64,000 bases of DNA from SAR202 cluster bacterium Casp-Chloro-G4 (GTDB lineage Bacteria; Chloroflexota; Dehalococcoidia; Lucifugimonadales; JADFKI01): positions 1 through 64,000 of the forward strand of contig MUCK01000017.1 in assembly GCA_002816705.1 (NCBI GenBank), read 5' to 3'. The notes under the pieces were generated by a model. That model searched no databases, had not been told where the DNA came from, and saw only the letters and a list, made by a program, of their open reading frames with translations. Within the stretch, counting starts at the first letter, position 1. Each line of letters starts with the position of its first letter. Below are positions 9,333 through 46,131 of the stretch, piece after piece. Made by a program: the position numbers and the translations under genes.

Positions 9333-9381
9333 GGTGTGCCTGCAATGAGGGTTCGATTTATGCGGACGTTCGCTACGGCTG

Positions 9382-30373: not shown

Positions 30374-31708
30374 TTAGAATTCAAACTTGTAGCTGGGAAG
30401 AGATTCCAGGAACAGCTTTTCAAGGTACTGGCGGAGGCCGTCATCTTCCACAGCCTCGATGATCTCATCCGCGAATCCGTAGATCAGTTGACGGCTGGCC
30501 GCTTCAAGATCCAGACCGCGACTCCGCATATAGAACACCGTGTCCTGGTCAATGTTGCCGGCTGTTGCGCCGTGGCCACAAACTACATCGTCGGCGTATA
30601 TGAAAAGAGCCGGTTTGCTATCCACCTCTGCGTCGGGCGAAAGCACCAGGTTCTTGTCCTCTTGACGAGAGTCCGTCTTGATGGCGCCAGGCTGCACGTA
30701 AACCGTCCCGCCAAATACGGCCCTGGATTTCCCGTCCAGAATGCCCTTGTAGTACAGACGGCTAGTGGAGTGCGGTTTCTGATGGTTGATGTTTATGTAA
30801 TTGTCCACGTGCTGCGAGCCCGACGTGTAGTAAAGGCCCTTCAGGTCACAACTGGAGCCCTCGCCATCCATGTTGGTGTAGAGGTCGAACCTACCGAGGC
30901 CGACTTTCCTCTCGAACACCTTGGACCTGTAGACGCTATCCGACTCTTGTTGAACGCGGGCGGACCCAACATGGAAGCTTTTTTCGCTCTCCTGCATTAG
31001 TCGGTAGTGCTGCAGCTCTGCGCCTGAGGCCATCGAAATCTCGGTGATGGCATTGGTGAAGTAGACGTTCTCGTCCAGGCCGACAAAGCTCTCGATTAGT
31101 GTGGCCTTACTGTTGGCCTCGCACACCAGGAGTACCCTGGGATGGGACACTGTGGCCTCATCTGCTCCCGAAGAAACGAAGAGCAGGTGAACGGGCTTAT
31201 CAGCGGTAACACCTTGTTTGATGTGGAGCACCGCGCCGTCCCGCACGAACGCCGTGTTAAGAGAGACGAACCCGTCGGCTTCCTCGAACTGAGGAGCTTG
31301 CCCCAGGTGTTGCTCTACCAATTCGTCGCCGTTAGCAATGGCCTGCGCGAGGCTAGTCACCGTGACGTTGCCAGACGCGCTTCCGGAATATTCAGAGACG
31401 TAATGTCCGTCTACAAAAACCATGTTGAGCCAGCTATCGTCCCAAGGCGCTGTGGCCTTGATCTGATCGAGGGTAACCTGCGCTGGCTTGGTAGCCAAAG
31501 CCAAACTTGCGTCGGCTATAGGCCCCACGTTGGTGTACTTCCAGGGCTCGTTGCCTCGCCGCGCTGTCGGAAAGCCTAGCTCCTGAAAGCGTGACCATGC
31601 ACTTAGCCGCATCGACCGTAGCCACTCGGGCTGGCCGCTGCCAATCGAGTCATCGAAGCTCTTGTAGTCCGTTTCGTACTGTTGGTATTTAGTTAGTGTC
31701 TGTGTCAT
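30374..31708 (-). CDS. sufD: Fe-S cluster assembly protein SufD
   Basis: A 444-aa beta-helix scaffold subunit of the SufBC2D complex. The conserved C-terminal region includes GHGATAGNIDQDTVFYMRSR near 372-391 and RQLIYGFADEIIE near 400-412. Cluster assembly occurs at the SufB-SufD interface. The gene order sufB-sufC-sufD is the usual one; 13 bases separate it from sufC. The assignment to SufD rather than SufB rests on its length and its lack of the SufB N-terminal cysteine region. Confidence 0.95.
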   Translation of the reverse strand: MTQTLTKYQQYETDYKSFDDSIGSGQPEWLRSMRLSAWSRFQELGFPTARRGNEPWKYTNVGPIADASLALATKPAQVTLDQIKATAPWDDSWLNMVFVDGHYVSEYSGSASGNVTVTSLAQAIANGDELVEQHLGQAPQFEEADGFVSLNTAFVRDGAVLHIKQGVTADKPVHLLFVSSGADEATVSHPRVLLVCEANSKATLIESFVGLDENVYFTNAITEISMASGAELQHYRLMQESEKSFHVGSARVQQESDSVYRSKVFERKVGLGRFDLYTNMDGEGSSCDLKGLYYTSGSQHVDNYININHQKPHSTSRLYYKGILDGKSRAVFGGTVYVQPGAIKTDSRQEDKNLVLSPDAEVDSKPALFIYADDVVCGHGATAGNIDQDTVFYMRSRGLDLEAASRQLIYGFADEIIEAVEDDGLRQYLEKLFLESLPSYKFEF

Positions 31709-31721
31709 ATATTGGCTTAAC

Positions 31722-32501
31722 CTACACCGCTACCTGGTCTCGCAGCCATTCGTAGCCCTTGTCTTCAAGTTCCAGGGCTAGCTCACGGCCTCCCGAGCGC
31801 ACGATACTGCCATCTACCAGTACATGTACATAGTCTGGCGTTATGTAGTTCAGAATTCGTTGGTAGTGTGTCACGAGAACGAAGGCGTTCTTGTCGGAAC
31901 GTACCTTATTAACGCCCTCGGAGACAATCCTCAAGGCGTCGATGTCGAGACCCGAGTCCGTCTCGTCTAGCAGCGCCAATGTGGGATCGAGAAGCGCCAT
32001 TTGCATTATCTCGTTCCGCTTCTTCTCTCCGCCGGAGAAACCCTCGTTTACCGAGCGCTTCACCAGATCCGTGTCCATCTCGACGATCTCACGCTTTTCA
32101 TCCAAAAGTTTGTCGAATTCACGGACGCTCAGCACTTTCTCGCCCCTGTGCTGTCGAATGGCGTCTACAGAGGCCTTCAGGAACTGCCACGTGCGAACTC
32201 CCGGCAACTCCACCGGGTACTGGAAGGCAAGGAATATGCCTTCGCGAGCGCGCAATTCCGGCAGCATGCTGAGAAGGTCCATGCCCTTATACAGGACCTG
32301 GCCTCCAGTGACCGTGTATTCAGGTCGCCCCGCCAAAACATTGGCGAGAGTACTCTTACCTGAGCCGTTTGGACCCATGATAGCGTGTACCTCGCCGATG
32401 TTAACGGTCAGGTTAACGCCCTTTAGTATCTCTTTATCTTCGATTGAAACGTGGAGGTCTATGACCTCAAGCACTGGGCTATTCTTGATTTCCTGAGTCA
32501 T
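31722..32501 (-). CDS. sufC: Fe-S cluster assembly ATPase SufC
   Basis: A 259-aa ABC-type ATPase that drives the SufBC2D complex. Walker A is GPNGSGKSTLANVLAG, the signature motif is GFSGGEKKRNEIMQMAL (the SufC-specific form), and Walker B is PTLALLDETDSGLD, followed by the H-loop LVTHYQR. It is not a membrane transporter subunit. It lies 2 bases after sufB and 13 bases before sufD. Confidence 0.98.
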   Translation of the reverse strand: MTQEIKNSPVLEVIDLHVSIEDKEILKGVNLTVNIGEVHAIMGPNGSGKSTLANVLAGRPEYTVTGGQVLYKGMDLLSMLPELRAREGIFLAFQYPVELPGVRTWQFLKASVDAIRQHRGEKVLSVREFDKLLDEKREIVEMDTDLVKRSVNEGFSGGEKKRNEIMQMALLDPTLALLDETDSGLDIDALRIVSEGVNKVRSDKNAFVLVTHYQRILNYITPDYVHVLVDGSIVRSGGRELALELEDKGYEWLRDQVAV

Positions 32502-32503
32502 CT

Positions 32504-33964
32504 TTACCCTACGGTTCCCTCCAGATTTACTCTTAGCAACTGAGAGGCCTCAGCCGCGAACTCGAATGGCAACTCCTTGAAGATGCCACGACAAAAGCCG
32601 TTTATGATCATGTAGTTGGCGTCCTCCAGGCCTATCCCGCGTTGTTGCAGGTAGAACAGTTGACTGTCGTCGACCTTGGAGGTGGTGGCCTCGTGAGCCA
32701 TCTGCGCCGTGGGGTTCCGCACCTCTATATACGGGACTGTGTGTGCGCCACACTTGTCCCCTATGAGGAGCGAATCGCACTGCGTAAAGTTCCGAGCGTT
32801 CGTTGCCGAGGGCATTATTTTAACCTGGCCGCGATACGTGTTTTGCGCCTTACCAGCGGATATGCCCTTGGCGATGATCGTGCTTTTTGTGTTCTTGCCG
32901 ATGTGGATCATCTTCGTGCCGGTATCAGCCTGCTGGTAGTTGTTTACCAACGCGACGGAGTAGAACTCACCCACGGAGTTGTCACCCTGCAAAATGACGC
33001 TGGGGTACTTCCACGTGATGGCCGAGCCTGTCTCCACCTGCGTCCAGGATATCTTCGAGTTCTTGCCCCTTGCGGCGCCACGCTTCGTCACGAAATTGTA
33101 GACTCCGCCGTTGCCTTCCTTATCACCAGGAAACCAGTTCTGCAATGTCGAGTACTTGATTTCCGCATCGTCCAGCGCTATAAGCTCAACAACTGCAGCG
33201 TGGAGTTGATGTGTCTTGCGCATAGGCGCTGTGCAGCCTTCAAGGTAGCTTACGTAGCTGCCCTTGTCCGCGATAATCAGGGTTCGCTCGAACTGTCCCG
33301 TGTTCAGTTCGTTGATGCGGAAGTAGGTCATCAATTCGATGGGGCAACGCACTCCCGGAGGTACGTAGACGAAGGAACCGTCGCTGAAAACCCCAGCGTT
33401 TAGGGCAGCGAAGAAGTTGTCCGTATAGGGAACCACTGAACCAAGGTACTTCTTTACGAGGTCAGGGTGGGTCTTCACGGCCTCGCTGACGGAGCAGAAT
33501 ATAACGCCCACTTCCTCAAGCATCTTGCGATAGGTGGTGGCCACGGATGCGCTGTCCAGCACTGCGTCCACGGCCACGCCGCTCAGGCGTTGCTGCTCAA
33601 TCAAAGGTATGCCCAGCTTGTTGAAGGCCTCCCGTATTTCAGGGTCCACGTCATCCATGCTCTGAGGAGCTTCGGCCGACGACTTGGGTGCCGCGTAGTA
33701 GTACATGTCCTGAAAGTCGATGGGCGGGTAGTCGATGTTGGCCCATTTTGGCTCCTCATTATCGAGGGTCAACCAGTACTTGTAGGCCTTAAGACGCCAT
33801 TCCAACATCCACTCAGGCTCGCCTTTTTTTTGGGATATCAGCCGGACAATGTCCTCGCTGAGTCCTTTGGGAGCTTTGTCCGATTCAATATCGAAGTCGA
33901 AGCCCCATTTATATTCGTTGTCTTCTACTCCGGTTGCACGGGAAATGACCCTTTGTTCGGTCAT
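32504..33964 (-). CDS. sufB: Fe-S cluster assembly protein SufB
   Basis: The 486-aa central scaffold. It is first in the suf cluster. [21 protein letters not shown] and [19 protein letters not shown] are SufB signatures, and the C-terminus has [26 protein letters not shown] eight bases before the ATG is a strong ribosome-binding site. The upstream region carries a TTGACT -35-like element inside a 23-bp inverted repeat, so initiation is probably regulated there. Confidence 0.97.
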
Positions 33965-34092: not shown

Positions 34093-34110
34093 GGCAACGG
34101 GGCCGTTGCC
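34093..34110 (-). terminator. Strong hairpin at the end of the hopanoid/carbohydrate run
   Basis: GGCAACGG and CCGTTGCC are perfect 8-bp arms with a 2-base centre. The hairpin starts at the stop codon of the nucleoside hydrolase gene, at the very end of the 12-kb minus-strand run and just before the sufB regulatory region. Only GTTCT follows, so it lacks a real U-tract; it may end transcription with help, or stabilise the 3' end. Confidence 0.45.
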
Positions 34111-34997
34111 TAGCCCAACCCTGCCAGGACGCCATCTTTGGCGGCCGCAACATCGATATCTACGGCCACCCGCACTCGGCCAGAGCCGAACTCTGCGGTG
34201 GTCTCGCCTAGACGTTCCCCCTGGGTTTCGACCTGTACGGAGGCCTGTTTATAGGTGAAAAGCTCTGGCCTGAGGGAAGCTAGCACGGTCAGGGGATCGC
34301 AAAGGTTATACCGGTCGTCATCGGGGCGCATTTTGAACCAGTTTCTTATAATGCGAGCCACCAGCTTTTCGCCCAGGGATTTCCCGCTGAACCATTCGGC
34401 GTCATCGCGCAAAACAGACGGCTCGTGGCATACGTCCAACCCCACCAGCGTTATCTTGGCATCGGACGAAAAGACTACGTTAGCGGCCTCCGCATCGTCA
34501 TAAATGTTGAACTCCGCGTAGGGCGTCACGTTGCCCGGCACGTTAACAGCGCCACCCATGACGTAGATTTCTTTCAGCAATTCCGGCAAAGCTGGCTCGT
34601 CCTGGATTGCCCGGGCAACGTTAGTTAGGGGACCCAATGCAATCAGGGTAAGCTCGCCTGGATAGGCTTTGGCGGAGTCCACAATAGCCTGGCGAGCCGC
34701 GACGGCGGAGGGTTTCGACTTTGGCGTAGGAAGTCGCACCGTCAATCCAGCGGGGCCGTGGTAGTAGTAGGCGTAGGTGAAGTGCCCCTTGAGTGGCCGG
34801 GAGGCTCCCCTGTAAACGGGAATGTCTGGGTGGCCCATATATTCAAGAATACGCAGGGCGTTACGAGTGGTGAGGGCCAGCGAAGCATTACCAGCCACGG
34901 TCGTTAGGCCAAGAATCTCTAATGCAGGCGAATTAAGCGCCAAGATCAAGGCAAGAGCATCGTCGGTGCCAGGGTCCGTGTCGATCAACACTTTCAT
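34110..34997 (-). CDS. Inosine-uridine preferring nucleoside hydrolase family protein
   Basis: A 295-aa nucleoside N-ribohydrolase. The calcium/ribose motif DTDPGTDDALAL is at residues 7-18, with VMGGAVNVPGNVTPYAEFNIY near 147-167. Near the C-terminus the usual His-Asp pair reads Cys-Asp (NLCDPLTV), a variation that may alter base preference. It should cleave the N-glycosidic bond of a nucleoside to ribose and base. It is last in the long minus-strand run and overlaps the epimerase by 4 bases. Confidence 0.9.
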   Translation of the reverse strand: MKVLIDTDPGTDDALALILALNSPALEILGLTTVAGNASLALTTRNALRILEYMGHPDIPVYRGASRPLKGHFTYAYYYHGPAGLTVRLPTPKSKPSAVAARQAIVDSAKAYPGELTLIALGPLTNVARAIQDEPALPELLKEIYVMGGAVNVPGNVTPYAEFNIYDDAEAANVVFSSDAKITLVGLDVCHEPSVLRDDAEWFSGKSLGEKLVARIIRNWFKMRPDDDRYNLCDPLTVLASLRPELFTYKQASVQVETQGERLGETTAEFGSGRVRVAVDIDVAAAKDGVLAGLG

Positions 34998-35950
34998 ATC
35001 TTATTCCTGCTTGCGACGAAGGCCTCCCAAGCGTCACGGGAAGTATACTTTGCCTTCAGTCCGTGCTCTCGTTCAAGCTTCTGTGTGGAGGCCAAGAACG
35101 GGTAGCGAATGAAGTTTAGCCCGGATGCCGGGGAGCTATTTTGCAGTCGAAGCGCCCAGGTGAGACTAGTCAGGCCATAAAGCAGCGGCGCAGGCATTCT
35201 CAACAGGCGCTTTCCAGCCAAACGCGCCATTTCATCCCAAGCAACTGCCCCATCACCGCCAACGTTGTAGATGCCGTTGACTTTGTTCAGCAGGCAATGT
35301 GCCAGAACCGCAACCATGTCATCCTCGTGGATGAACTGCATTGGAGGATCGAAGCCTCTAATACCCACCAACGTGGATCGCGAGAAGGACTGGGCTACGA
35401 AGTTGTCTGCGTTTGGACCAAGTACCGGGCATGACCGCAGTATCGATACGTCGCAAGCAGCGTCTGCCATCAGATCACCTTGTAGGTAGAGGTCCGCACT
35501 CGCCTTGGTCTCACCGTATCGGAAGCCCTTCACAGGACGCACGGGTGATTCTTCGGTTAGCAGGGCAGGGTTATCTGGGTGCGCCCCGTAAACTGTCGTG
35601 CTGCTAAGGTATACCAGATGCCGCACGTAACCTAGAACGCACGATTGCATAACATTCATGGCTCCGTGCACATTGATTCGAAGCGCCGTCTTGTACTGCC
35701 GATCTGGATTAAGCACAAACGCCAGGTGTGCTACCGCTTCCACGCCGTGCTCTCGAAACAGATCATCCATGGGCAATGTGACATCGTGTTGAACAAACAC
35801 AACCTTGCTTGAGTACTGCTGCCGAGGAGGACGGATGTCTGTGGCGAGGATATGGTCGACGCTATCCAGACCGTCCAAGTGCCGGATAAGCTGGCCCCCT
35901 ATGTAGCCGGACGCCCCCGTGATAGCTATCCCTCGAATCCCAGAGGTCAC
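34994..35950 (-). CDS. NAD-dependent epimerase/dehydratase (extended SDR)
   Basis: A 318-aa extended short-chain dehydrogenase. The nucleotide motif is ITGASGYIGGQLIRHL at residues 9-24. The catalytic Tyr and Lys are in FRYGETKASADLY near 144-156, and the preceding YLSSTTVYG supplies the Ser/Thr. Substrates of such proteins range from nucleotide sugars to sterol-like compounds and cannot be chosen from sequence. The start is GTG at 35950, overlapping the stop of the 121-aa gene (TAGTG); the 3' end overlaps the nucleoside hydrolase by 4 bases. Confidence 0.9.
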   Translation of the reverse strand: MTSGIRGIAITGASGYIGGQLIRHLDGLDSVDHILATDIRPPRQQYSSKVVFVQHDVTLPMDDLFREHGVEAVAHLAFVLNPDRQYKTALRINVHGAMNVMQSCVLGYVRHLVYLSSTTVYGAHPDNPALLTEESPVRPVKGFRYGETKASADLYLQGDLMADAACDVSILRSCPVLGPNADNFVAQSFSRSTLVGIRGFDPPMQFIHEDDMVAVLAHCLLNKVNGIYNVGGDGAVAWDEMARLAGKRLLRMPAPLLYGLTSLTWALRLQNSSPASGLNFIRYPFLASTQKLEREHGLKAKYTSRDAWEAFVASRNKI

Positions 35951-36315
35951 TACTCGATCACGTCAGTGAAGTCGAACTTTAGAGTACCAAGACCAGGGAC
36001 ATCAAACCCCATCCCTATCTTCCGGGCGCCCGGTTCCAGCGTCACGCCATCTACCCAAACTGTAATCGCTTTGTTCATGGCCAGAGTGAACGTATTGTCC
36101 CGGGATATCTGATCGAAAGCAGTCTCCTGGTCGTTCAGAATGAAGAATGATCGGCTCAAAACCTGCTCTACGCCATCCACGATGAGAGGTGACATGCCAT
36201 GAGTATATCCGGACCCCAACTTGTTCATGAGCTGGAACTCAAAGCCGTTAGGTGTATTTCTAAGGCTTTCCTTAACGTAGAGCCTACGAAGCAGGAAACC
36301 GGGAACGCTTACCAT
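35950..36315 (-). CDS. Uncharacterised 121-aa protein
   Basis: No family is recognised with confidence. It begins MVSVPGFLLRRLYVKESLRN and ends in LGTLKFDFTDVIE. The sequence is predicted to be beta-rich, with alternating hydrophobic residues and conserved-looking glycines (GSGYTHGMSPLIVDGVEQ, GARKIGMGFDVPG). It has no membrane helix, signal peptide or cysteine pair. A GAGG ribosome-binding site precedes the ATG and the gene is locked between aldolase (22-base gap) and epimerase (1-base overlap), which shows it is a real gene. It may be a small beta-sandwich ligand-binding protein; this is a guess from composition. Confidence 0.7.
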   Translation of the reverse strand: MVSVPGFLLRRLYVKESLRNTPNGFEFQLMNKLGSGYTHGMSPLIVDGVEQVLSRSFFILNDQETAFDQISRDNTFTLAMNKAITVWVDGVTLEPGARKIGMGFDVPGLGTLKFDFTDVIE

Positions 36316-36337
36316 TCTCTATTCCTCACAGTCCTGA

Positions 36338-37024
36338 TTACGATCTATTCAAACGGGCCTGCCGGCGCATTTCGAAAATCGCCACCTCGGCCTCAACAAC
36401 ATCGGCTGGCAAGGTGGTCACCTTCCCCGACATAGAAGCGTAATAATATATCTGAGCCAGACGTTCCAGCATCACGCAGACGTTCAGCGCTTCTCTGAGG
36501 TCTTCGCCCACGCAGACGGCGCCATGGTTACGGATAATGGCGGCGTTACGTCCTTCCAGCGCGGCGCAGACGTTGTCGGCCAACTCCTGCGACCCTGGAA
36601 AGGCGTACTCGGACACCTTGACCGGCCCCCCGATTGATATGATCGCCTCGTCAATTATCGGCGGCATCTCCAGCCCCATTACGGCCGCTACACTGGCAAA
36701 AACCGAGTGGGTGTGGATTACCGCGCCAGCGTCAGCACGCCGCCGGTAAATCTCCGTATGCAGCAGCGTTTCGGAAGAGGGAATGCCTTCACCGTCTACA
36801 GGGTTCACATCGAGGTCAACGACCACGATGTCCTGGGGTGTCATTTCAGCGTAAGACACGCCCGTTGGAGTAATCGCAACCAGTACCCGGTCAGGCTCGC
36901 CCATGTCGTCAGAAGAGACGCGGAGGCTCACGTTACCACTGGTGCCGACGGTAAGCCCCAGCGACGCCATTTCCTGCGCCGCCGTTACTACGGACTGCCT
37001 TTCGTCTTTCCAGCGAATCGTCAT
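36338..37024 (-). CDS. Class II aldolase/adducin family protein (fuculose-phosphate aldolase-like)
   Basis: A 228-aa zinc aldolase. Metal-binding His residues are visible in AVIHTHSVFASVAA near 97-110 and in AIIRNHGAVCVG near 155. SGNVSLRV near 30 and SSETLLHTEIY near 80-90 hold the phosphate-binding and catalytic segments. Family members split L-fuculose-1-P, L-ribulose-type or 5-deoxyribulose-1-P substrates into DHAP and an aldehyde, or epimerise L-ribulose-5-P. It lies 19 bases downstream of the FGGY kinase, consistent with a kinase-then-aldolase path. Confidence 0.9.
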   Translation of the reverse strand: MTIRWKDERQSVVTAAQEMASLGLTVGTSGNVSLRVSSDDMGEPDRVLVAITPTGVSYAEMTPQDIVVVDLDVNPVDGEGIPSSETLLHTEIYRRRADAGAVIHTHSVFASVAAVMGLEMPPIIDEAIISIGGPVKVSEYAFPGSQELADNVCAALEGRNAAIIRNHGAVCVGEDLREALNVCVMLERLAQIYYYASMSGKVTTLPADVVEAEVAIFEMRRQARLNRS

Positions 37025-37043
37025 ATTTCTGGAGTCGCCCTTG

Positions 37044-38552
37044 CTAAAGTTCTATGTTTCGGAGAGATTCAGACAGTCGTATCCAACCCTTGTAATACTC
37101 TTCGTACTGGGCCGCGTTGCGTGCGTCTGGCTGCAGTAGCCGCATGTCTGACCTGGCATGCGCGGCAGCCTCCCTCAGGTCTCGGAAGTCGCCCAAGACT
37201 GTTTTGGCGCACAAGAATGTACCAATCGCCGTTGCGTCCGGAAGAGACGACAGAAGAACATCCCGCCCCAGTACATCAACAAGTATTTTAGGGAAGGCGG
37301 CGGTCCGTGTCATGCCGCCACCCAGCGAGATGGACATCGCACTCTGACCAGTCACGGCCTCCAACTGCTCTATGTTGGCTCTTATGGCGTAGGCGGTGGA
37401 TTCCAACGCAGCCCGCGCCAGGTCTTTCCGCTGAATCTTACCAGTCGCCGCATTAAGAGGCACTGGAAACATGAGCCCGCCGTAGGTCATCCCAACAGAT
37501 CCCATGTCCATTGCTCCGTTTCCCATGAATGCTACTGCTCCGTTCGCCCCCGAACCGCTGAAGGAAGCGTCAATCGCCATATCAGCGAAAGGATCACTCC
37601 TGTCGCCGTAAACCGTGTCCGCCAGCCACTGGTAAGCGTTTCCGGTATCTCCGGCCGAACTTTCCGCCACCCAGCCGTCGTCGAGCACATGGCATCCCGC
37701 CCAAGTGCGCATCTCCGGTGAAAGCTTCGGCTGAGCCGTCACCATCTGTACCGGTGCGCTCCAGCCTGCCACGACGCCAACGTGACCTGTTTCCGCTACG
37801 CCCATGCCTAGAAGTCCACACTGGGTGTCCGCGCCTGCAATCGTGACGGGAACTCCCACTGCAAGGCCAGTCGCGCTGGCAGCGTGACCAGATACGTTGC
37901 CGGCTACAACACCGGACTTCACCAGAGGACCGGTCCGTTCAGGCAGTTCGAGTTCCCGCAGCAGACCGTTGCACCATTGTCGACTGCCGATATCCAGCAG
38001 TCCGGCCTCGCCAGCCAGAGTAACTTCGTTGGCGACGACGCCTGTAAGCCGCCACGCCAACCAGTCGGCCAAAGTCAAAACGGTGGCTATTCTACCATAG
38101 GCTTTCGGCCGCTGTTGCTGGAACCAACGCAGCTTGGCAGGCGTGAAAAAGAATGAGGGCAGATGTCCCGTTACTCCGTAGACATGCTCCCGAAATTCCT
38201 CATCTATGGCCGCGCCTTCAAAGACCGCTCGCAGGTCCATGTTCGGTCCGGCGTAGATTTCGTTACCGGCTGCGTCCAGAAATACGACACCCTGGCGTTG
38301 ACTGGTCACCGCGATGCATGACACGACTCCGAGGCTGGTCGGGGCATCGGCAGCACACTGGCGAATTGCCAGGCAAATACCGTCCCACAACTGTTGTGGG
38401 TCGAATGACCTGGCCATAGATGGAGCGTCTGGCTCTTCCAGATACGCCCATTCCGTGGCAGACGAGGCTACTATTGTGCCCTCACCATCGAAAATGTGGC
38501 AGCGCAGCCTGCTAGAGCCGGCGTCTATTACCAGAACAGGTCCCTTAATCAT
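37044..38552 (-). CDS. FGGY-family carbohydrate kinase
   Basis: A 502-aa sugar kinase of the xylulokinase/gluconokinase group. The N-terminal phosphate loop is VLVIDAGSSRLRCHIFD. VSCIAVTSQRQGVVFLD follows near 80-96, and the C-terminal ATP domain has ISLGGGMTRTAAFPKILVD near 402-420. Typical substrates are ketopentoses and related polyols; AI-2 kinase LsrK also belongs here. It lies 4 bases after the hydroxyacid-dehydrogenase-like gene and 19 bases before the aldolase. Confidence 0.93.
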   Translation of the reverse strand: MIKGPVLVIDAGSSRLRCHIFDGEGTIVASSATEWAYLEEPDAPSMARSFDPQQLWDGICLAIRQCAADAPTSLGVVSCIAVTSQRQGVVFLDAAGNEIYAGPNMDLRAVFEGAAIDEEFREHVYGVTGHLPSFFFTPAKLRWFQQQRPKAYGRIATVLTLADWLAWRLTGVVANEVTLAGEAGLLDIGSRQWCNGLLRELELPERTGPLVKSGVVAGNVSGHAASATGLAVGVPVTIAGADTQCGLLGMGVAETGHVGVVAGWSAPVQMVTAQPKLSPEMRTWAGCHVLDDGWVAESSAGDTGNAYQWLADTVYGDRSDPFADMAIDASFSGSGANGAVAFMGNGAMDMGSVGMTYGGLMFPVPLNAATGKIQRKDLARAALESTAYAIRANIEQLEAVTGQSAMSISLGGGMTRTAAFPKILVDVLGRDVLLSSLPDATAIGTFLCAKTVLGDFRDLREAAAHARSDMRLLQPDARNAAQYEEYYKGWIRLSESLRNIEL

Positions 38553-38556
38553 GCCA

Positions 38557-39552
38557 TCACGTCCTGTTCTGCCAGGCGTCAGGGTTCACGAGGTTAAGGG
38601 GGCTCTGGCCGTTTACGAACCGCAGAATGTCATCGGTCATCATGCGGGAATGACGCTCCACTGTCTCCTCGGTGGCTCCTCCGATGTGGGGGGTGAGGAC
38701 TACGTTATCGAGCGCAAGCAACGGGTTCTGCGGCGAAACAGGGTGCGACTCAAAGACGTCCAGAGCGGCGCCGGCTATGCGCTTTTCAATAAGAGCGTCT
38801 GCCAATGCCTTCCCTTCGAAGACCGCTGCGTCGGAGGCGCTTATTACATATGCTGTCGGCTTCACCAAAGCCAACCGTTCGGCATTCAACGTACCCAGGG
38901 TCTGCGGCGTCAACGGCACATGCACATCGATGAAGTCAGCCTGCTTGAGAAGCTCATCCAACTCCACCTGTTTTATGTAGGAGACATTGGGGTCGGCGTA
39001 GGGGTCGTAGCCCAGCACCTCCATCCCCAGCGCGTGACATATCTCTGCAACCATGAGGCCTATGGCGCCCAGACCAATCACACCGACCGCGCGTCCCTGC
39101 AACTCTATGCCGCGAAGGGTGGTGTAAGGCTCCGTTGGGTCCTGCCACGAGCCTTCTTTGACGTAGTTATGCGATTGAGGAATCTTCCGTGCCAACGCCA
39201 GCATGAGACCTAACGTGTGCTCGGCTACGGCGCGTGCATTGCGTCCCGGTGTGTTAACGACGACTATGCCTTTTTCAGAGGCCGCCTCAAGATCGACATG
39301 ATTTGTTGCCGCCCTACAAATGCCGACGAACTTGAGACCGGGCACCTGTGCGAAGGTCTCCTCGAAGGCAAAGTCCGACTCGATCACGAGAATTGAAGAG
39401 CCGTCCTTCAAAAGGCGTTGCGCCAACTCGTCGGGGTCGTAGAGCTTTCTAGTCTTCATCCAGCTTTCGTGTGCGACGTGAATTTCTTGACGCAATCGGG
39501 CAAGCTGGCTGTCGCTAAAGGGCGCGAGGATCAGGGCGTGGTCGGTGGACAT
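38557..39552 (-). CDS. D-2-hydroxyacid dehydrogenase-like protein with altered active site
   Basis: A 331-aa member of the PGDH-like family. The NAD-binding motif is VGVIGLGAIGLMVAE near 156-170, and TNHVDLEAASEKGIVVVNTPG near 83-103 is typical. Of the Arg-Glu-His catalytic triad only His289 (LTPHIGGAT) is seen. The arginine position is Asp241 (ISASDAAVFEG) and the glutamate position is His270 (DVFESHP). The reading frame continues upstream to 39708, but that part overlaps the squalene-synthase-like gene and has no family similarity, so ATG 39552 is used. It may bind NAD without normal dehydrogenase chemistry, or use a different mechanism. Confidence 0.88.
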   Translation of the reverse strand: MSTDHALILAPFSDSQLARLRQEIHVAHESWMKTRKLYDPDELAQRLLKDGSSILVIESDFAFEETFAQVPGLKFVGICRAATNHVDLEAASEKGIVVVNTPGRNARAVAEHTLGLMLALARKIPQSHNYVKEGSWQDPTEPYTTLRGIELQGRAVGVIGLGAIGLMVAEICHALGMEVLGYDPYADPNVSYIKQVELDELLKQADFIDVHVPLTPQTLGTLNAERLALVKPTAYVISASDAAVFEGKALADALIEKRIAGAALDVFESHPVSPQNPLLALDNVVLTPHIGGATEETVERHSRMMTDDILRFVNGQSPLNLVNPDAWQNRT

Positions 39553-39568
39553 TCGTGTGGCGCGCCGC

Positions 39569-40453
39569 CTACCTCTTGAGCGAAGGTTTTGGCACGGAGG
39601 GAAGTAGCGTGCCTGCCCAGAGTTTCGCCACCAGAAGAAGCTTCGTCGGTTTGCTAAGACCGATGCGCCTCTCGAAAACGTTATAGCCGGAGGACTCAAT
39701 ACGGTCAAGGACCCTACTATACGTGGCGTGCAATAAGCTTGGACACACCCTGGCCTCCGGATGAATCAGCGGGAAGAGCTTCCGAGACTTGTCGTAATAC
39801 GACCTGGCGCGGCCAACCTCGAATTCCATCAGTGCTCGAAAAGAATCATTAACAACGCCGTTCATGAGGTCCTGCTCCGTGTAACCGAAACGGGCCATAT
39901 CGTCCTGCGGCAGGTAAATGCGGTCGCGCTCCGCGTCCTCTTTAACGTCCCGAAGAATGTTGGTGAGCTGCATCGCCAAGCCCATGTCTACCGCATATTC
40001 CCGGGCCTGAGCATCGTCGTAGCCGAAGACCTCGATACAGATGAGACCCACCACAGAGGCGACCTTGTAGCAGTACTCTTTTAGCTCATCGAAATTTGCG
40101 AAGCGGGTCTTGGTCAGGTCCATCTCCACTCCCTCGATAACCTCTTCGTAATAATCGAAGGGGATATGAAAGGCGTGGGAGGCGTCGCTTATGGCGCGGA
40201 AGACGGGTTCGGTGGCGCTGCCATCGCGGGAGTCCGCCAGATGTCGGCGAGTTTCCGCGAATTGGCGGTCCTTTTCACCGGGAGGAAGGTCTTCGTCAGA
40301 GATATCGTCACAAAGCCGACAAAATGCATACGCCGCATAGATAGCCCTACGCTTCCTGGCGGGCAAGGTGCGGAAGGCGTAATAGAAATTGCGAGCGTGT
40401 TCTTTGGCTATTTGCTGGCAGTGGTCGTAGGCCTGTTCTACTTCATTGCCCAT
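39569..40453 (-). CDS. hpnD: Squalene/phytoene synthase family protein (HpnD-like)
   Basis: A 294-aa trans-isoprenyl synthase joining two prenyl diphosphates head to head. The two Asp-rich motifs are FCRLCDDISDED near 47-58 and LTNILRDVKEDAERDRIYLP near 164-183. SARSF-like ARNFYYAFRTLP is at 20-31. Context with squalene-hopene cyclase, HpnG and HpnH indicates hopanoid synthesis. Only this one synthase is present, so it is either the presqualene-diphosphate enzyme HpnD (with HpnC and HpnE elsewhere) or a one-step squalene synthase. It lies 16 bases before the hydroxyacid-dehydrogenase-like gene. Confidence 0.88.
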   Translation of the reverse strand: MGNEVEQAYDHCQQIAKEHARNFYYAFRTLPARKRRAIYAAYAFCRLCDDISDEDLPPGEKDRQFAETRRHLADSRDGSATEPVFRAISDASHAFHIPFDYYEEVIEGVEMDLTKTRFANFDELKEYCYKVASVVGLICIEVFGYDDAQAREYAVDMGLAMQLTNILRDVKEDAERDRIYLPQDDMARFGYTEQDLMNGVVNDSFRALMEFEVGRARSYYDKSRKLFPLIHPEARVCPSLLHATYSRVLDRIESSGYNVFERRIGLSKPTKLLLVAKLWAGTLLPSVPKPSLKR

Positions 40454-40551
40454 ATCGCCCCCCGAGTCTCCCGCATTAGACGGGGACTGCGTTTACAAAG
40501 AATCAACGGGGAATTAACGGGCCCGTAATTACATTTGTTGCCAGGGGCGAA

Positions 40552-41028
40552 TTAGGCGCCCATTACCTGAATCAAGACCTGACGAAATTCCCTCTGATCA
40601 TCCAACTCAACCATGAATATCCGCTGGAACTCGCCAAGCGTGAGTTTGCCATCCACCACGGGCACGTTCTCGCTAGCGCCTAAAATCAGGTGCTGGCAGT
40701 GCGAGTGGCCGTTGGGGCACTCGTCCTCGTGCATGTGCACGGTACGAACCTCGAAGTCGTTGTGCCTGTAGTGCTGGTTTCTTGGGGCGAATCTCTCGAT
40801 TGCGCTGGCCATGTCTTGCAACAGGAGGGGTTCGTTTTCCTGCAACACAATAGCTGCCGTAGTATGTTTCGAGAACACTACCGCAAATCCGTTCTGCACC
40901 TGTGACTGCTTAACGAATTCTTGCACCTCGTCGGTGATATCGAAAAACTCCGGCATGCCCGCAGACCTAACATCCACTTCGAGTGTGAATATACAGGTCT
41001 TGAATGATGCCTCTTGTAGAACCTTCAT
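40552..41028 (-). CDS. YjbQ/UPF0047 family protein
   Basis: A 158-aa member of the UPF0047 family. Signature parts are FSKHTTAAIVLQENEPLLLQD near 52-72, a His/Cys-rich segment EDECPNGHSHCQHLILG, and GEFQRIFMVELD. YjbQ proteins have weak thiamine-phosphate synthase activity; the true role is unknown. It sits between the cyclase (45-base gap) and the synthase (98-base gap) in the hopanoid run, and no thiamin genes are near. The N-terminal 20 residues are longer than usual, so an internal start such as the ATG at the PEFFDIT segment is possible. Confidence 0.88.
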   Translation of the reverse strand: MKVLQEASFKTCIFTLEVDVRSAGMPEFFDITDEVQEFVKQSQVQNGFAVVFSKHTTAAIVLQENEPLLLQDMASAIERFAPRNQHYRHNDFEVRTVHMHEDECPNGHSHCQHLILGASENVPVVDGKLTLGEFQRIFMVELDDQREFRQVLIQVMGA

Positions 41029-41073
41029 TTTGAACCTCTCCCGTCAACCTTTGAAGGACAGTCAACGTGAAAT

Positions 41074-43176
41074 TTACCACATCGGTATAAGTTGTTTCAA
41101 TCTTTTTCGTCTAGGTTTTTCAACCCGGTTTTTCCCCGCAATAGCCACCCCGCGACTACGACTAATGATACGCCTCTCGCCATTCATATGGCTTCTATAT
41201 CGTCCCAACGCCGTCAAAGGCCAGTAGATACGATACATGTGATATTTGATCATGAAGCCCGCCGAGAGTTCTTCACCTTGATATCCAGGGTCCTCCGGGT
41301 TCAAATAGTCGGGCAAACGCTGGCCGATACCATAGCCAGGGAAGCCTGTTCCTGTAAAGTAGGGCTCGTCCCAAGTGCCGTCAGACACTTGTGTTCTCAA
41401 CAGGTAGTCCACTCCATTTAACGTAGACGGATGCTCGCTTTTTCCAGCGGCGATAAGCGCCATTAGCGCCCAGGCCGTTTGAGAAGCAGTGCTGGGACCT
41501 CGTCCTCGTGACGCTGAGTCCACGTAAGAAGAACAGCTTTCTCCCCATCCACCATCTTCGTTCTGGTGTTCGATGACCCAATGGACGGCTTTATGAACGA
41601 AATTCTGTTTCATATCGATGCCCAATGCCTCTAAGGCAGGCAATACTGCCCCAATACCGTATATGTAGTTAACCCCCCACCTACCAAACCAAGCACCATC
41701 AAGCTCCTGATCATTTGTGATAAAAGCCAACGCTTTCTGGACGACAGGTATGTCATCGGAGAAACCCAATTGGCCCAACATTTCCAGGATATGAGCAGTA
41801 ACATCAACGCTGGGCGGGTCGATAGTCTCGCCGAAATCAGAAAACGGAATCTTGGAAATGAGCCCCTTGGAATTGTCCTTGTCGAAGGAGGCCCAGCCGC
41901 CGTTGGAACTCTGCATGCCCATAAGCCACTGTAATGCCCGTTCAATAGCCTCTTGTTTTTCGCCTTCGTAGGCGTCGAGGTTCACCTTATTCAACGCCAT
42001 TACCACTTCCGCCGTGTCGTCAAGGTCCGGGTAGCTATCGTTGGCGAACTCGAAGGCCCATCCTCCGGGAGGCGTACCCTTGGCTCTCACCTGCCAGTCG
42101 CCACCGTTCAAAACCTGCTTTTTCACGAGGAAGCTGCCCGCTTTTGCCAGGGACGGGTGGTCCGGCCTTAAGCCGGAGTCCAGCAGCGCTATCATCGTCA
42201 GGCAAGTGTCCCACAGGGGCGAGACGCATGCCTGCACTCTTAGAGTGTCGTCTTCCTCAATAACAAAGGCCTCGAACCCCTCTAGTCCCTTTTTTATGGC
42301 AGGATGATCCAGGCCGTAGCCCAGCTCGTGAAGGGCCATCAGGGAATATACCCAGGGCGGCTGTATACCCCCCCAACTGCCATCCTCTTCCTGATGATCT
42401 AAGATCCAGCGTTCAGCACGGCGCACCGCCTGGCCGCGAGTCGGTATCCACGGCAGTCGTTCTAACTGTCGAAGCACAACGTCGTTGGCATAGAAAAGCG
42501 ATTCCCACCCGATCAGCTTGGATGGCCGCTTTATGGCGTAGGCGGTATCCTTTCGCGAACGAATGTATAGCTCGTCGACGCAGGCCTCGTCTGGTATCTT
42601 CCGAACAGGCTTCCGGTCCATCAGCACAAGCAGAGGCACAACTGTCGCCCTTGCCCAACTGGAGAAGTCATAAAGATTAAGTGGGAACCAGTCTGGAATC
42701 AGCATCAACTCCGGCGGCATCACCGGAACGCCCTTCCAGTCCCACTGGCCAAACAGAGAGAACCATATCTTCGTAAAGACCCTTGCGTTCGGCATACCAC
42801 CCTTGGACAGAATGAAATCCCTGGCTTTCACCATATTTGGCTCATCGGCGGAAATGCCGGACAGCTTCAGCGCAAAGTAACATTCGGCCGACGTACTTAG
42901 GTCGCCTGGCGAACCGTAGTACTGACCCCACGTCCCATCGTCGCGCTGCTGGCCCAGAATGCGGTTGACCAGTTTCCGGTTGCGCCCCTCGTCCCTGATG
43001 CCCAGAAAATAGTTCAGCAGTATGAACTCGGCTTCCATGGTCGGGTTTGACTCAAGTTCACCCCACCAGTAGCCCTCCGCGTATTGGGCGTTAAGCAAGT
43101 AGTCATGGCTCATCTGGATAGATTTGTCCAGATGAGATGTTTGCTCCACTAAATTACCGGTGGACAAAGTGTCCAT
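41074..43176 (-). CDS. shc: Squalene-hopene cyclase
   Basis: A 700-aa alpha/alpha-barrel terpene cyclase converting squalene to hopene/diploptene at the membrane. The protonating DxDDTA motif is DLDDTA at 384-389. Several QW repeats are visible (HQEEDGSWGG, QSSNGGWASF, HQNEDGGWGES, QVSDGTWDE), and the C-terminal family segment FTGTGFPGYG is present. After the normal end there is an additional basic tail of about 40 residues (RRIISRSRGV...KPRRKRLKQ) with no known counterpart. hpnG and hpnH lie upstream, 8 bases and about 0.8 kb away. Confidence 0.97.
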   Translation of the reverse strand: MDTLSTGNLVEQTSHLDKSIQMSHDYLLNAQYAEGYWWGELESNPTMEAEFILLNYFLGIRDEGRNRKLVNRILGQQRDDGTWGQYYGSPGDLSTSAECYFALKLSGISADEPNMVKARDFILSKGGMPNARVFTKIWFSLFGQWDWKGVPVMPPELMLIPDWFPLNLYDFSSWARATVVPLLVLMDRKPVRKIPDEACVDELYIRSRKDTAYAIKRPSKLIGWESLFYANDVVLRQLERLPWIPTRGQAVRRAERWILDHQEEDGSWGGIQPPWVYSLMALHELGYGLDHPAIKKGLEGFEAFVIEEDDTLRVQACVSPLWDTCLTMIALLDSGLRPDHPSLAKAGSFLVKKQVLNGGDWQVRAKGTPPGGWAFEFANDSYPDLDDTAEVVMALNKVNLDAYEGEKQEAIERALQWLMGMQSSNGGWASFDKDNSKGLISKIPFSDFGETIDPPSVDVTAHILEMLGQLGFSDDIPVVQKALAFITNDQELDGAWFGRWGVNYIYGIGAVLPALEALGIDMKQNFVHKAVHWVIEHQNEDGGWGESCSSYVDSASRGRGPSTASQTAWALMALIAAGKSEHPSTLNGVDYLLRTQVSDGTWDEPYFTGTGFPGYGIGQRLPDYLNPEDPGYQGEELSAGFMIKYHMYRIYWPLTALGRYRSHMNGERRIISRSRGVAIAGKNRVEKPRRKRLKQLIPMW

Positions 43177-43184
43177 GACTTATT

Positions 43185-43964
43185 TCACCTTGCGCCCAAC
43201 GCTAGGTTTAAGGCCTGGGCGCCATCTGGGGTCAGATTCAACAGGAATCGGCTGAGCGACGCTGTTGCCTGCCTGGACTGGGTTAATAGAGCAATGGTGC
43301 GTTTTATCGATGTCGGATGGGAGGCCATATATGATGCAGCCCTTAATGCCGTCTGGACAGCCGAGCCATCAAGCGACTTGGCGACGAACGAAGGCAGCGT
43401 TTGCCCCATGGGGTCAAAAACGGCGCGCAAGATAATATGCGGTATGCCAAGTTCTTCAGCGGCCTCGCTTACCCAGTAGCTTTCCATATCTATAACGTCG
43501 GTCGCGAAGGTTCGACCCAACCACTCCTTCATAGAGCTGCCCGACACCAGGTAGGGCATTGTTAAGCAGGAGCCCCAACGTACCTCAATGTCGTTCCACT
43601 GGTCGTAAGGCAGCACTGATTCCGGAACAGATTTTCCGAGAATCGTATCCACGTTCCAATACGCTGCTTCGCCAGTCAGGCTTTGTAGCCGACTGCAGAC
43701 GACAACCTCGCCCGTGACCATATCCGGCCTTGAGCCAGCGGCATATCCGGCTGACACCAGGAGGTCTGGCGGGTACTTGTCTGCCACTAGTCTTACGGCG
43801 TCCCGCGACATTTGGGGACCAAAGCCGCCTTCCACGACGACCACGTCCCGGCAAACAGGCGACAGGTAAAACCGAAAGGCGTCTTCCTTCTCTACCAACC
43901 TGAACTGCCCTGCACGCAGGTAGTCCTTAATCTCTCGCTCGAACGCTACAAGTATTGCCAGCAT
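43185..43964 (-). CDS. hpnG: Hopanoid-associated nucleoside phosphorylase HpnG
   Basis: A 259-aa protein of the nucleoside phosphorylase family. ILVAFEREIKDYL starts the fold, with VVVVEGGFGPQMSRDAVRL near 47-65, LVSAGYAAGSRPDMVTGEVV near 79-98 and the purine-binding VIDMESYWVSEAAEELG near 155-171. HpnG removes adenine from adenosylhopane to give ribosylhopane in side-chain elongation. The position directly between hpnH (27-base gap) and the cyclase (8-base gap) supports this over a general purine phosphorylase. Confidence 0.9.
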   Translation of the reverse strand: MLAILVAFEREIKDYLRAGQFRLVEKEDAFRFYLSPVCRDVVVVEGGFGPQMSRDAVRLVADKYPPDLLVSAGYAAGSRPDMVTGEVVVCSRLQSLTGEAAYWNVDTILGKSVPESVLPYDQWNDIEVRWGSCLTMPYLVSGSSMKEWLGRTFATDVIDMESYWVSEAAEELGIPHIILRAVFDPMGQTLPSFVAKSLDGSAVQTALRAASYMASHPTSIKRTIALLTQSRQATASLSRFLLNLTPDGAQALNLALGAR

Positions 43965-43991
43965 GCCCCTGTACTCAGTTGATTTCTCGGC

Positions 43992-45020
43992 CTAAGCCGT
44001 TCCGATACCGCTGTTTTGCAACGCGCCCTTTTTCAGAAGACGAAGCGCATCGGCTGGCCTTTCGAAGGTGCCGAAAATCGACGCAGATTCAAATCCGCAG
44101 TGCATGAGGCAGTTGTCGCAGCGAGAGTCGTTACCAACTCCGTAACGCTCCGACCACATCTCCTCGCTGAACAGGTCGTTGATGTCCTGGGTGTGTCGGT
44201 CGCCCAGCAGGTAGCAGGGTTCGCGCCAACCCAATACTGTATACGTAGGATTGGACCAGGCGGTGCACTGATATTCCCGATCCCCTCTCAAGAAATCCAA
44301 ATAAAGAGGGTTGTTGTAGAAGCGGATGTTTCGCGCTGGGTCCAGGATGTTCCTGAAAACCTTACGTGCATTCTGCCTGGAGATGAACAGGTTCTGATTA
44401 GGCACCGTGTCGAACTGGTAACCCGGAGAAACCATGCAGCCCTCTATGCCCATGTCCGTGAGCATCTTGAACATCGTTACGAGGTCTTCTTCGTCAACGC
44501 CGTTGAATACAGTGGTATTCGTGGTCACACGGTAGCCCTCGTCCAGCGCCTTGCGTATTCCGCGCATGGCGATCTGGAAAACGCCTTTACGATATACAGA
44601 CTTATCGTGGGCCTCTTCCATCCCGTCCATGTGAACGACGAAGCAAAAGTACTTGGACGGGGGAATCTTCTTCATCATGCGCTCCATTAAAAGGGCATTG
44701 GTGCACATGAATACAAACTTCTTCTTCGCCGTGATGGCCTTCACGATCTCGTCTATCTGCGGGTGTAGAGACGGCTCTCCGCCGGCGATGGACACGATTG
44801 GCGCGCCTGATTCCTCCACTGCCGCCAGGCAGTGTTCTACGGAGAGCGTTCGGTCTAGCACGCGTTCGTACTCGCGGATACGACCGCAGCCTAGGCAAGC
44901 GAGGTTACACTTCTCCAAAGGCTCAAGCATCGTAACCAGGGGGAAGCGTTTCCTTCCCATCATCTTATTCTTGACAATGTACCAACCGGTTTTAAATGCT
45001 AGTTCCAAAGGTCTACCCAT
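43992..45020 (-). CDS. hpnH: Hopanoid radical SAM protein HpnH
   Basis: Radical SAM enzyme adding the 5'-deoxyadenosyl group to diploptene to form adenosylhopane. The cluster motif CNLACLGC (CxxxCxxC, about residues 38-45) follows FPLVTMLEPLEK, and SIAGGEPSLHPQID is the GGE SAM-binding motif. The C-terminal region carries further cysteines (DSRCDNCLMHCGFESA). Two adjacent starts are possible, GTG 45023 and ATG 45020; GGGAG six bases before the ATG favours 45020. The polyprenyl synthase gene is 31 bases upstream. Confidence 0.95.
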   Translation of the reverse strand: MGRPLELAFKTGWYIVKNKMMGRKRFPLVTMLEPLEKCNLACLGCGRIREYERVLDRTLSVEHCLAAVEESGAPIVSIAGGEPSLHPQIDEIVKAITAKKKFVFMCTNALLMERMMKKIPPSKYFCFVVHMDGMEEAHDKSVYRKGVFQIAMRGIRKALDEGYRVTTNTTVFNGVDEEDLVTMFKMLTDMGIEGCMVSPGYQFDTVPNQNLFISRQNARKVFRNILDPARNIRFYNNPLYLDFLRGDREYQCTAWSNPTYTVLGWREPCYLLGDRHTQDINDLFSEEMWSERYGVGNDSRCDNCLMHCGFESASIFGTFERPADALRLLKKGALQNSGIGTA

Positions 45021-45051
45021 CACGCACTCCCAAATCTTGACCTGATAACCA

Positions 45052-46131
45052 TCAGTGTTCTCTCACCACTAAGAACTGGATTAGCTCCTCAATTTCTGCT
45101 CGGGCACTGGGTTCAAGCTCCACCGACTCCAAAGCATCTGACGCGTCCTGGCCATGCTCCATCGCCATTTCGTGGGCGCATCCGCGAGTTTCCGCTCGAT
45201 CCATTATCTCCAACACCCGGCCAACATCTCCCTCGGCGACCTCGTCTTGCCTGTAGATGTCCAGAAGCGATTGCTTTTCAGCGCCCTTGGCTTGAGACAT
45301 AGCATGGACGACCGGAAAGGAATTTTTCTTTCTTCTGATGTCAGCGCCTACAGGTTTGCCTGTAGTCTTCTCGTCACCCCAGACGCCCAAAACGTCGTCT
45401 CGGACCTGAAAGATGAAGCCCAGAGCCTCTCCGCTGGATCGGAAGGCGTTTGCCGTTGCCTTGTCGCCCGAACCAATGAGGGCGCCCATGGTGAATGCGC
45501 ACCTGATCAGCGCTCCGGTCTTACGAGCGATCATGCCCAGGTAGTCCTGCATGCCCAGGTCGGACTGGCCCTCAAAAGAAAGGTCCAGGTACTGACCTTC
45601 AATCATCTCCAGATACGCCTCGGTGAGGAGACTGGCCACACCCAGGGCGGTCTCTGCGTCCACGCCGCGTCGGATCAGCTCCTCCAAGGAAAAATCGGCG
45701 ACCACTCTAAGGACGTTTCCGGCGACCAGAGCTTTGGGAATGCCCCAGACCGCCCACAGCGTTTTGCGGTGGTGGCGGGTCTCGTCCTGGTCCTGAATGT
45801 CGTCATGAATAAGTGAGAAGTTGTGTATCAACTCGAGCGCCACTGCCGCCGGCATGGCCTGCTCAATCGAACCACCCGTGGCCTGGCATGCGAAAAGACA
45901 AAGGGTCGGGCGCAGGTACTTGCCCTCCGTGGCCACAATGGGATTGCCCTCCGTGTCGGCCCAGCCCATGTAGTAACGCAACATGTCATACACGGCAATG
46001 GCTTCTTTAGAGGAGTTCTGAGGGGTAATAGCCTGACGTAACGCAGTCCCAATCTCCGCCCTATACCTTAGGAACAGGCCTGGGAGGCTGTCAGTCTGCT
46101 TATCAGGTGTATTTAGCAAAGGTTTGGTCAT
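45052..46131 (-). CDS. Polyprenyl diphosphate synthase
   Basis: A 359-aa trans-prenyltransferase that extends allylic diphosphates with IPP. The first Asp-rich motif is LIHDDIQDQDETRHH near 111-125; the second is FQVRDDVLGVWGDEKTTG near 242-259, where the usual fifth-position Asp is Gly. It probably supplies farnesyl or geranylgeranyl diphosphate. It is the first gene of the hopanoid run, so farnesyl diphosphate for squalene is the natural guess. The candidate promoter TTGACA-N17-TAGGAT lies about 90 bases upstream. Confidence 0.9.
   Translation of the reverse strand: MTKPLLNTPDKQTDSLPGLFLRYRAEIGTALRQAITPQNSSKEAIAVYDMLRYYMGWADTEGNPIVATEGKYLRPTLCLFACQATGGSIEQAMPAAVALELIHNFSLIHDDIQDQDETRHHRKTLWAVWGIPKALVAGNVLRVVADFSLEELIRRGVDAETALGVASLLTEAYLEMIEGQYLDLSFEGQSDLGMQDYLGMIARKTGALIRCAFTMGALIGSGDKATANAFRSSGEALGFIFQVRDDVLGVWGDEKTTGKPVGADIRRKKNSFPVVHAMSQAKGAEKQSLLDIYRQDEVAEGDVGRVLEIMDRAETRGCAHEMAMEHGQDASDALESVELEPSARAEIEELIQFLVVREH

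Follow-up and report, generated by a model that had tools for sequence, protein, structure and literature searches.

Known systems and the SAR202 locus

In alphaproteobacteria, the genes for hopanoids, sterol-like and geologically important lipids, form hpn clusters (hpnC-D-E-shc-hpnG-hpnH plus hpnA, B and I-O). The adenosylhopane synthase HpnH couples 5'-deoxyadenosyl to diploptene, and HpnG takes off adenine to give ribosylhopane, a 5-deoxy-5-alkyl ribose like 5-deoxyribose or 5-methylthioribose. Here we describe a hopanoid locus with a sugar-processing module, unreported within the one open-access library searched, in a SAR202-type member of the Dehalococcoidia (Chloroflexota). The locus lies in a stretch of 64,000 nucleotides (the window; contig MUCK01000017.1, positions 1 to 64,000) of the metagenome-assembled genome GCA_002816705.1 (1.36 Mb, 67% complete), whose named relatives are Dehalococcoidia, SAR202 among them. 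The genes behind many side chains of bacteriohopanepolyols (BHPs) are still unknown; a compact conserved gene set makes this question testable, and the present one belongs to bacteria that abound in the deep ocean. Which enzyme converts ribosylhopane to bacteriohopanetetrol (BHT) after HpnG has yet to be established; when 48 BHP-producing alphaproteobacteria were surveyed, no obvious new candidate genes emerged beside their hpn clusters (PMC12583986). SAR202 bacteria have been discussed as degraders of sterols and hopanoids (PMC5395668); in contrast, many of the SAR202 relatives analyzed here encode hopanoid making, of which no description for SAR202 or Dehalococcoidia was found in that library.

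The window block has ppS, hpnH, hpnG, shc and hpnD in common with the alphaproteobacterial clusters, whose hpnA, hpnC and hpnE occur in its sister lineages. Unlike these clusters, it adds yjbQ and the genes for a dehydrogenase, an FGGY kinase, a class II aldolase, a 121-aa protein (p121), a short-chain dehydrogenase/reductase (SDR) and a nucleoside hydrolase (NH). The dihydroxyacetone phosphate (DHAP) shunt for 5-deoxyribose disposal (DrdK-DrdI-DrdA or MtnK-MtnA-Ald2) likewise combines a nucleosidase, a kinase and a DrdA-like class II aldolase for a 5-deoxypentose. However, the window kinase belongs to the FGGY family and is not of the MtnK/DrdK type, MtnA and DrdI are absent from the block, and the substrate would be a triterpenoid-linked sugar. 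The L-fucose and L-rhamnose pathways (FucI-FucK-FucA, RhaA-RhaB-RhaD) also place an FGGY ketose kinase before a class II DHAP aldolase, but the window block has neither isomerase nor transporter and stays under every curated subfamily cut-off. Among solved and curated proteins, the window kinase is closest to the autoinducer-2 kinase LsrK; unlike in LsrK systems, no lsr genes accompany it, and its score (244 bits) falls below the LsrK equivalog cut-off of 528.

The block runs from 46131 to 34110 as twelve open reading frames on the minus strand, in the order ppS-hpnH-hpnG-shc-yjbQ-hpnD-dehydrogenase-kinase-aldolase-p121-SDR-NH, which confirms the order and strand given by an initial annotation made from the sequence alone. 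Successive gaps from ppS to p121 are 28, 27, 8, 45, 98, 16, 4, 19 and 22 nt, none above the maximum of 98 nt given there; of the "several" overlaps it mentioned there are two, p121/SDR (1 nt) and SDR/NH (4 nt). The genes, all on the minus strand, are:

45052..46131, minus: ppS, polyprenyl (farnesyl-type) diphosphate synthase, first gene (PF00348, 207 bits)
43992..45023, minus: hpnH, adenosylhopane synthase, radical SAM enzyme with CNLACLGC motif (TIGR03470, 429 bits, cut-off 225)
43185..43964, minus: hpnG-like nucleosidase/phosphorylase with DMES motif (TIGR03468, 74 bits, below the cut-off of 187.1)
41074..43176, minus: shc, squalene-hopene cyclase (SHC) with DLDD motif (TIGR01507, 787 bits, cut-off 431)
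40552..41028, minus: yjbQ, UPF0047 (TIGR00149, 110 bits, cut-off 67.75)
39569..40453, minus: hpnD, presqualene diphosphate synthase (TIGR03465, 295.5 bits, cut-off 278.6)
38557..39552, minus: NAD enzyme of the 2-hydroxyacid dehydrogenase fold without the catalytic Arg and Glu of the family (PF02826; motif alignment)
37044..38552, minus: FGGY sugar kinase, nearest to LsrK (PF00370/PF02782; PDB 5ya0; sequence alignment)
36338..37024, minus: class II aldolase of DrdA/FucA type (PF00596, 183 bits; PDB 6btd, 7e-36; motifs)
35950..36315, minus: p121 (121 aa), predicted to be C-glycoside deglycosidase beta-subunit-like (profile match 8umc/8qvc, 2e-4; Foldseek)
34994..35950, minus: extended SDR, sugar-epimerase-like, not HpnA (PF01370, 83 bits; fold)
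34110..34997, minus: NH, nucleoside hydrolase of the IUNH family with DTDPGTDDA motif (PF01156, 286 bits)

SHC and HpnH, which together mark a C35 extended-hopanoid locus, both exceed their curated cut-offs. The initial hopanoid labels hold in this way for HpnH, SHC, HpnD and YjbQ, while the hpnG label, given its subthreshold score, rests on gene position, the phosphorylase-fold match and the DMES motif.

Conservation of the cassette beside hopanoid genes

We searched for the kinase in 148 genomes of the class and for HpnH in 60 relatives, and then mapped the gene neighbourhoods. Nearly all informative loci carry, on one strand, ppS-hpnH-hpnG-(hpnA)-shc-yjbQ-(hpnC)-hpnD-(hpnE) followed by dehydrogenase-kinase-aldolase-p121-(SDR)-(NH). 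In about 20 family-level groups (defined by the family codes of the search tool), the block adjoins hopanoid or squalene genes, with kinases 35-53% identical to that of the window, and a scan of named genomes agrees with this recurrence. The dehydrogenase starts about -13 to +40 nt from the stop of the upstream squalene gene, with frequent overlap, in most of 50 loci measured, which include duplicates of one genome. At the hpnD/dehydrogenase junction of the window the gap is 16 nt (start ATG at 39552), and in loci L084 and L091 the dehydrogenase overlaps hpnE by 4 nt. A merger of the two halves by chance, which the initial annotation had allowed for, is ruled out by the recurrence in about 20 groups; the gene-order comparison across Chloroflexota that it proposed finds the halves together in most related hopanoid loci.

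Presence of the cassette also follows that of hopanoid genes. Among the 60 relatives, p121 was found in 26 and SHC in 30, with both in 24 (Fisher 8e-9), and p121 accompanies HpnH in 22 (Fisher 5e-8); among the 148 class genomes, p121 is present in 16 and SHC in 38 (three broken or partial), with both in 14 (Fisher 5e-8), all these tests ignoring shared ancestry. In a quick maximum-likelihood tree of 84 kinases with midpoint root, all kinases of the Dehalococcoidia group together in a single clade (SH-aLRT 100), within which the kinases of p121-less genomes make up one nested subclade of 15 (support 100) beside the hopanoid-linked L082 and L086. The tree fits an ancestral hopanoid link that would have been lost once, a direction inferred with the midpoint root. 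Overall, the tie of the cassette to hopanoids appears probable; the link is strong, not obligate.

Six loci at first seemed to hold the cassette without hopanoid genes (L104, L106, L116, L135, L128 and L131), but shc and hpnH were found elsewhere in those genomes. At the old locus, L106 (7878-8654) and L116 (8240-9016) encode HpnG-like proteins that lack the Glu of the DMES motif, which suggests that these proteins decayed or took on another role once shc and hpnH had left. In genome G075 (L096), SHC is broken by stops and the dehydrogenase gene is also split, possibly a joint decay of hopanoid synthesis and the cassette.

Enzymes of the cassette

In an alignment of 101 homologues, the dehydrogenase retains the NAD motif GLGAIG and the catalytic His (TPHIGGAT), while the catalytic Arg and Glu are gone (SASD-x-HP in place of NTARG-x-EP). 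This corrects the initial label "hydroxyacid-dehydrogenase-like". Arg and Glu are lost throughout the Dehalococcoidia homologues except the distant L099 (33% identical), and Arg with Glu or Asp is kept in homologues of Asgard archaea, Anaerolineae, Myxococcota, Actinomycetota and Bacillota. A 2-hydroxyacid is thus an unlikely substrate, and loss of the carboxylate-binding Arg would be consistent with a non-acid one. The almost clade-wide loss sets apart a pseudo-hydroxyacid dehydrogenase subfamily.

The aldolase motifs are intact, with three metal-binding His, the catalytic Glu and the DHAP-phosphate site. Its best PDB match, 6btd, is the 5-deoxyribulose-1-phosphate aldolase DrdA (PMC6079011); the protein passes no curated subfamily cut-off.

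The p121 protein, initially left as an unknown, now resembles the beta subunit of C-glycoside deglycosidases (CGDs). Profile search matches it to DUF6379 chains of these enzymes (8umc/8qvc, E 2e-4), and for its AlphaFold2 model (pLDDT 91) the best 17 Foldseek matches are all CGD beta chains (E 2e-6 to 2e-4, 11-20% identity); as modelled, p121 has the CGD beta-subunit fold. In CGDs, which cut the C-C bond between sugar and aglycone, the beta subunit helps in substrate recognition (PMC12141560). Unlike in DgpBC and CarBC, an alpha-subunit partner (Mn-dependent TIM barrel) was not recognised in the window block, a genome-wide search for it not having been made. Assignment of p121 to HMG-CoA reductase, as the Pfam family PF25653 (HMG-CoA_red_N) would have it, is unsupported given the CGD beta fold, and the family name (HMG-CoA reductase N-terminal domain) appears misleading in its case.

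In the SDR the YxxxK motif is intact, and fold search returns the general sugar-epimerase fold without a hint of substrate. It is not HpnA (27 bits on TIGR03466, cut-off 367.65), the true HpnA of sister loci scoring 438 bits. The NH stays below the equivalog cut-offs of RihC (210 vs 382 bits), RihA (196 vs 433) and UriH (181 vs 450).

Possible role in hopanoid side-chain processing

We tentatively favour the reading that the second half of the block is an ancient, selected hopanoid-locus module of the Dehalococcoidia for processing the side chain that C35 hopanoids derive from ribose, because of the linkage in about 20 groups, the co-occurrence of p121 and SHC, the intact DrdA-like aldolase and the predicted CGD beta fold of p121. 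It is based on gene content, motifs, linkage and co-occurrence, from which substrate, step order and direction are inferred. The initial annotation had already suggested action on the ribosyl group or tail by a DHAP-shunt-like route; this version is best supported because the nearest solved relative of the aldolase is DrdA. That the block acts on the hopanoid side chain at all we regard as rather likely, and cleavage of the chain as possible, if on balance somewhat doubtful.

By such a route, the sugar of ribosylhopane would be converted into a 2-ketose without a dedicated isomerase; perhaps the Arg-less dehydrogenase and the SDR would reduce and then re-oxidise it, as in polyol catabolism, with p121 possibly helping. 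The FGGY kinase would phosphorylate C1 of the ketose, and the DrdA-type aldolase would split the ketose phosphate, releasing DHAP and leaving a C32 hopanoid aldehyde, which one of the two NAD enzymes could turn into an alcohol or acid. p121 may hold the lipid-sugar, and NH may serve as a second N-glycosidase. The full scheme, in which Dehalococcoidia including SAR202 shorten hopanoids enzymatically, phosphorylating C35 ribosylhopane and aldol-cleaving it so that DHAP and C32 hopanal result, the latter then becoming hopanol or hopanoic acid, with an Arg-less dehydrogenase and a p121-type lipid-sugar binder, is by itself unlikely. If true, some C32 geohopanoids would be direct biological products, not solely breakdown products of C35 compounds, and enzymatic tail cutting would change the interpretation of short-chain hopanoid biomarkers; nothing on bishomohopanoic acid with BHP was found in the open-access library. 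More broadly, the recurrent cassette in marine and soil Chloroflexota hints at a so far unrecognised step in which the sugar-derived hopanoid tail is altered or trimmed.

Several observations weigh against side-chain processing. The block contains no isomerase gene, as the initial annotation had noted; MtnA is present but unlinked to the block in 22 of the 26 genomes with p121 and is absent from some p121 carriers (e.g. G164); its action as the isomerase in trans is possible, not specific. Four genomes (G156, G182, G051 and G085) carry p121 with the block or part of it in the absence of SHC: the complete genome G182 has dehydrogenase, aldolase, p121 and NH in a kinase-less block beside squalene genes, and the block of G156 also includes DHDPS-family and PIG-L-family genes. 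Conversely, SHC occurs without this kinase in 22 of the 148 class genomes, almost always together with HpnH; thus, extended hopanoids do not need it. The Arg loss is also seen in a non-hopanoid subclade of Dehalococcoidia. Finally, the dehydrogenase-kinase-aldolase core occurs without p121 in Asgard archaea, Anaerolineae and others that have no SHC, and some Anaerolineae cores adjoin sugar ABC transporter and GH4 genes.

The same linkage data would equally accommodate a module that makes or decorates BHT with the chain left uncut, the Arg-less dehydrogenase or the SDR being the missing ribosylhopane-to-BHT reductase, the kinase phosphorylating the polyol head and the aldolase-fold protein epimerising it to give a modified or epimeric BHP head. 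The ribosylhopane-to-BHT gap mentioned above (PMC12583986), the two NAD enzymes accompanying HpnH/HpnG, and the 4-epimerases among class II aldolase relatives speak for it. However, a kinase with a DHAP-type aldolase bearing full metal and phosphate motifs is the signature of a retro-aldol pathway, and the common kinase-less SHC/HpnH genomes are presumably BHT makers too; we consider this explanation unlikely, though worth keeping in view. Only slightly less credible, and still improbable, is that a general sugar-catabolic module became fixed next to the hopanoid genes of an early ancestor of the Dehalococcoidia, where operon inertia has held it since. The homologous core of Asgard archaea, Anaerolineae, Myxococcota and Actinomycetota, in some cases with an ABC sugar transporter, the retention of the block without SHC in some genomes and the mostly vertical kinase tree all fit such a passenger. 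Yet the linkage outlasts great divergence, separated gene sets remain in the same genomes, no transporter was seen in the hopanoid-linked blocks examined, and, among the loci compared, only the Dehalococcoidia version appears to have p121 and the altered dehydrogenase.

Salvage of small nucleosides or 5-deoxyribose, arising from radical SAM enzymes or adenine release, with co-transcription explained by the SAM use of hpnH/hpnG, would leave the lipid untouched. NH and HpnG are both N-glycosidases and the aldolase is nearest to DrdA, but HpnH uses up the adenosyl group rather than releasing 5'-deoxyadenosine, so that the 5'-deoxyadenosine salvage raised in the initial annotation is not specifically called for. 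In addition, the block has no DrdK/DrdI-type kinase or isomerase, many carriers lack NH, and the co-occurrence is with SHC, which is not a SAM enzyme; such salvage seems quite improbable.

The sugar core outside Dehalococcoidia

The homologous core, found also in Myxococcota and Actinomycetota, is outside Dehalococcoidia often accompanied by an SCP2 lipid-carrier-like protein together with an aldehyde ferredoxin oxidoreductase. That the aldolase has such an oxidoreductase as a neighbour speaks for an aldehyde as the putative product. The oxidoreductase is of the tungsten type in L163, L169, L172, L175, L134, L136 and L138 (Asgard archaea, Anaerolineae), each with the SCP2-like carrier. L173, from Anaerolineae in which no SHC was found, encodes at 8939-9928 a true HpnA (421 bits, cut-off 368) directly before the kinase, and in L149 and L171, Anaerolineae without detected SHC, HpnA likewise directly precedes the kinase-dehydrogenase pair. 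HpnA is thus tied to the kinase core independently.

Transcription unit, squalene genes and neighbourhood

A sigma-70-like site with TG lies at 46248-46220, just upstream of ppS (a consensus match only). No promoter-like site was detected between 39552 and 40453, where the initial annotation had looked to a promoter as evidence for two units, or at the hpnD/dehydrogenase junction, in a scan that was overall at chance level and not decisive; the picture is only consistent with a single transcription unit. The hairpin reported at the end of the block is present (34110-34093, GGCAACG-GCCC-CGTTGCC), but it has no U-run after it and is absent from the output of the terminator scan, and as a candidate terminator it is not convincing.

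Of the HpnCDE squalene route the window has HpnD only, without hpnC and hpnE. Neither the host genome (67% complete) nor several relatives with near-complete genomes yielded an HpnE above the cut-off; SHC carriers without HpnE over the curated cut-off are G148, G149, G153, G155, G157, G159, G164 and G175. The UPF0047 gene yjbQ is invariably part of these hopanoid loci, with no known role in hopanoid synthesis.

Downstream of NH, at a spacing of 145 nt from sufB, lie:

30374..33964, minus: sufB, sufC and sufD (family profile matches; kept downstream in close relatives)

With a sigma-70-like site at 34055-34027, sufBCD probably form their own transcription unit. sufB and sufC, often with sufD, trail the hopanoid/cassette block in L063, L067, L070, L072, L102, L104, L144 and L174; this recurrence in many close relatives means that the conserved neighbourhood reaches beyond the twelve-gene block. 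Upstream, a divergent nuo cluster (NADH dehydrogenase subunits) extends from 46124 of the window onward, and the same layout is seen in L104, L106 and L116.

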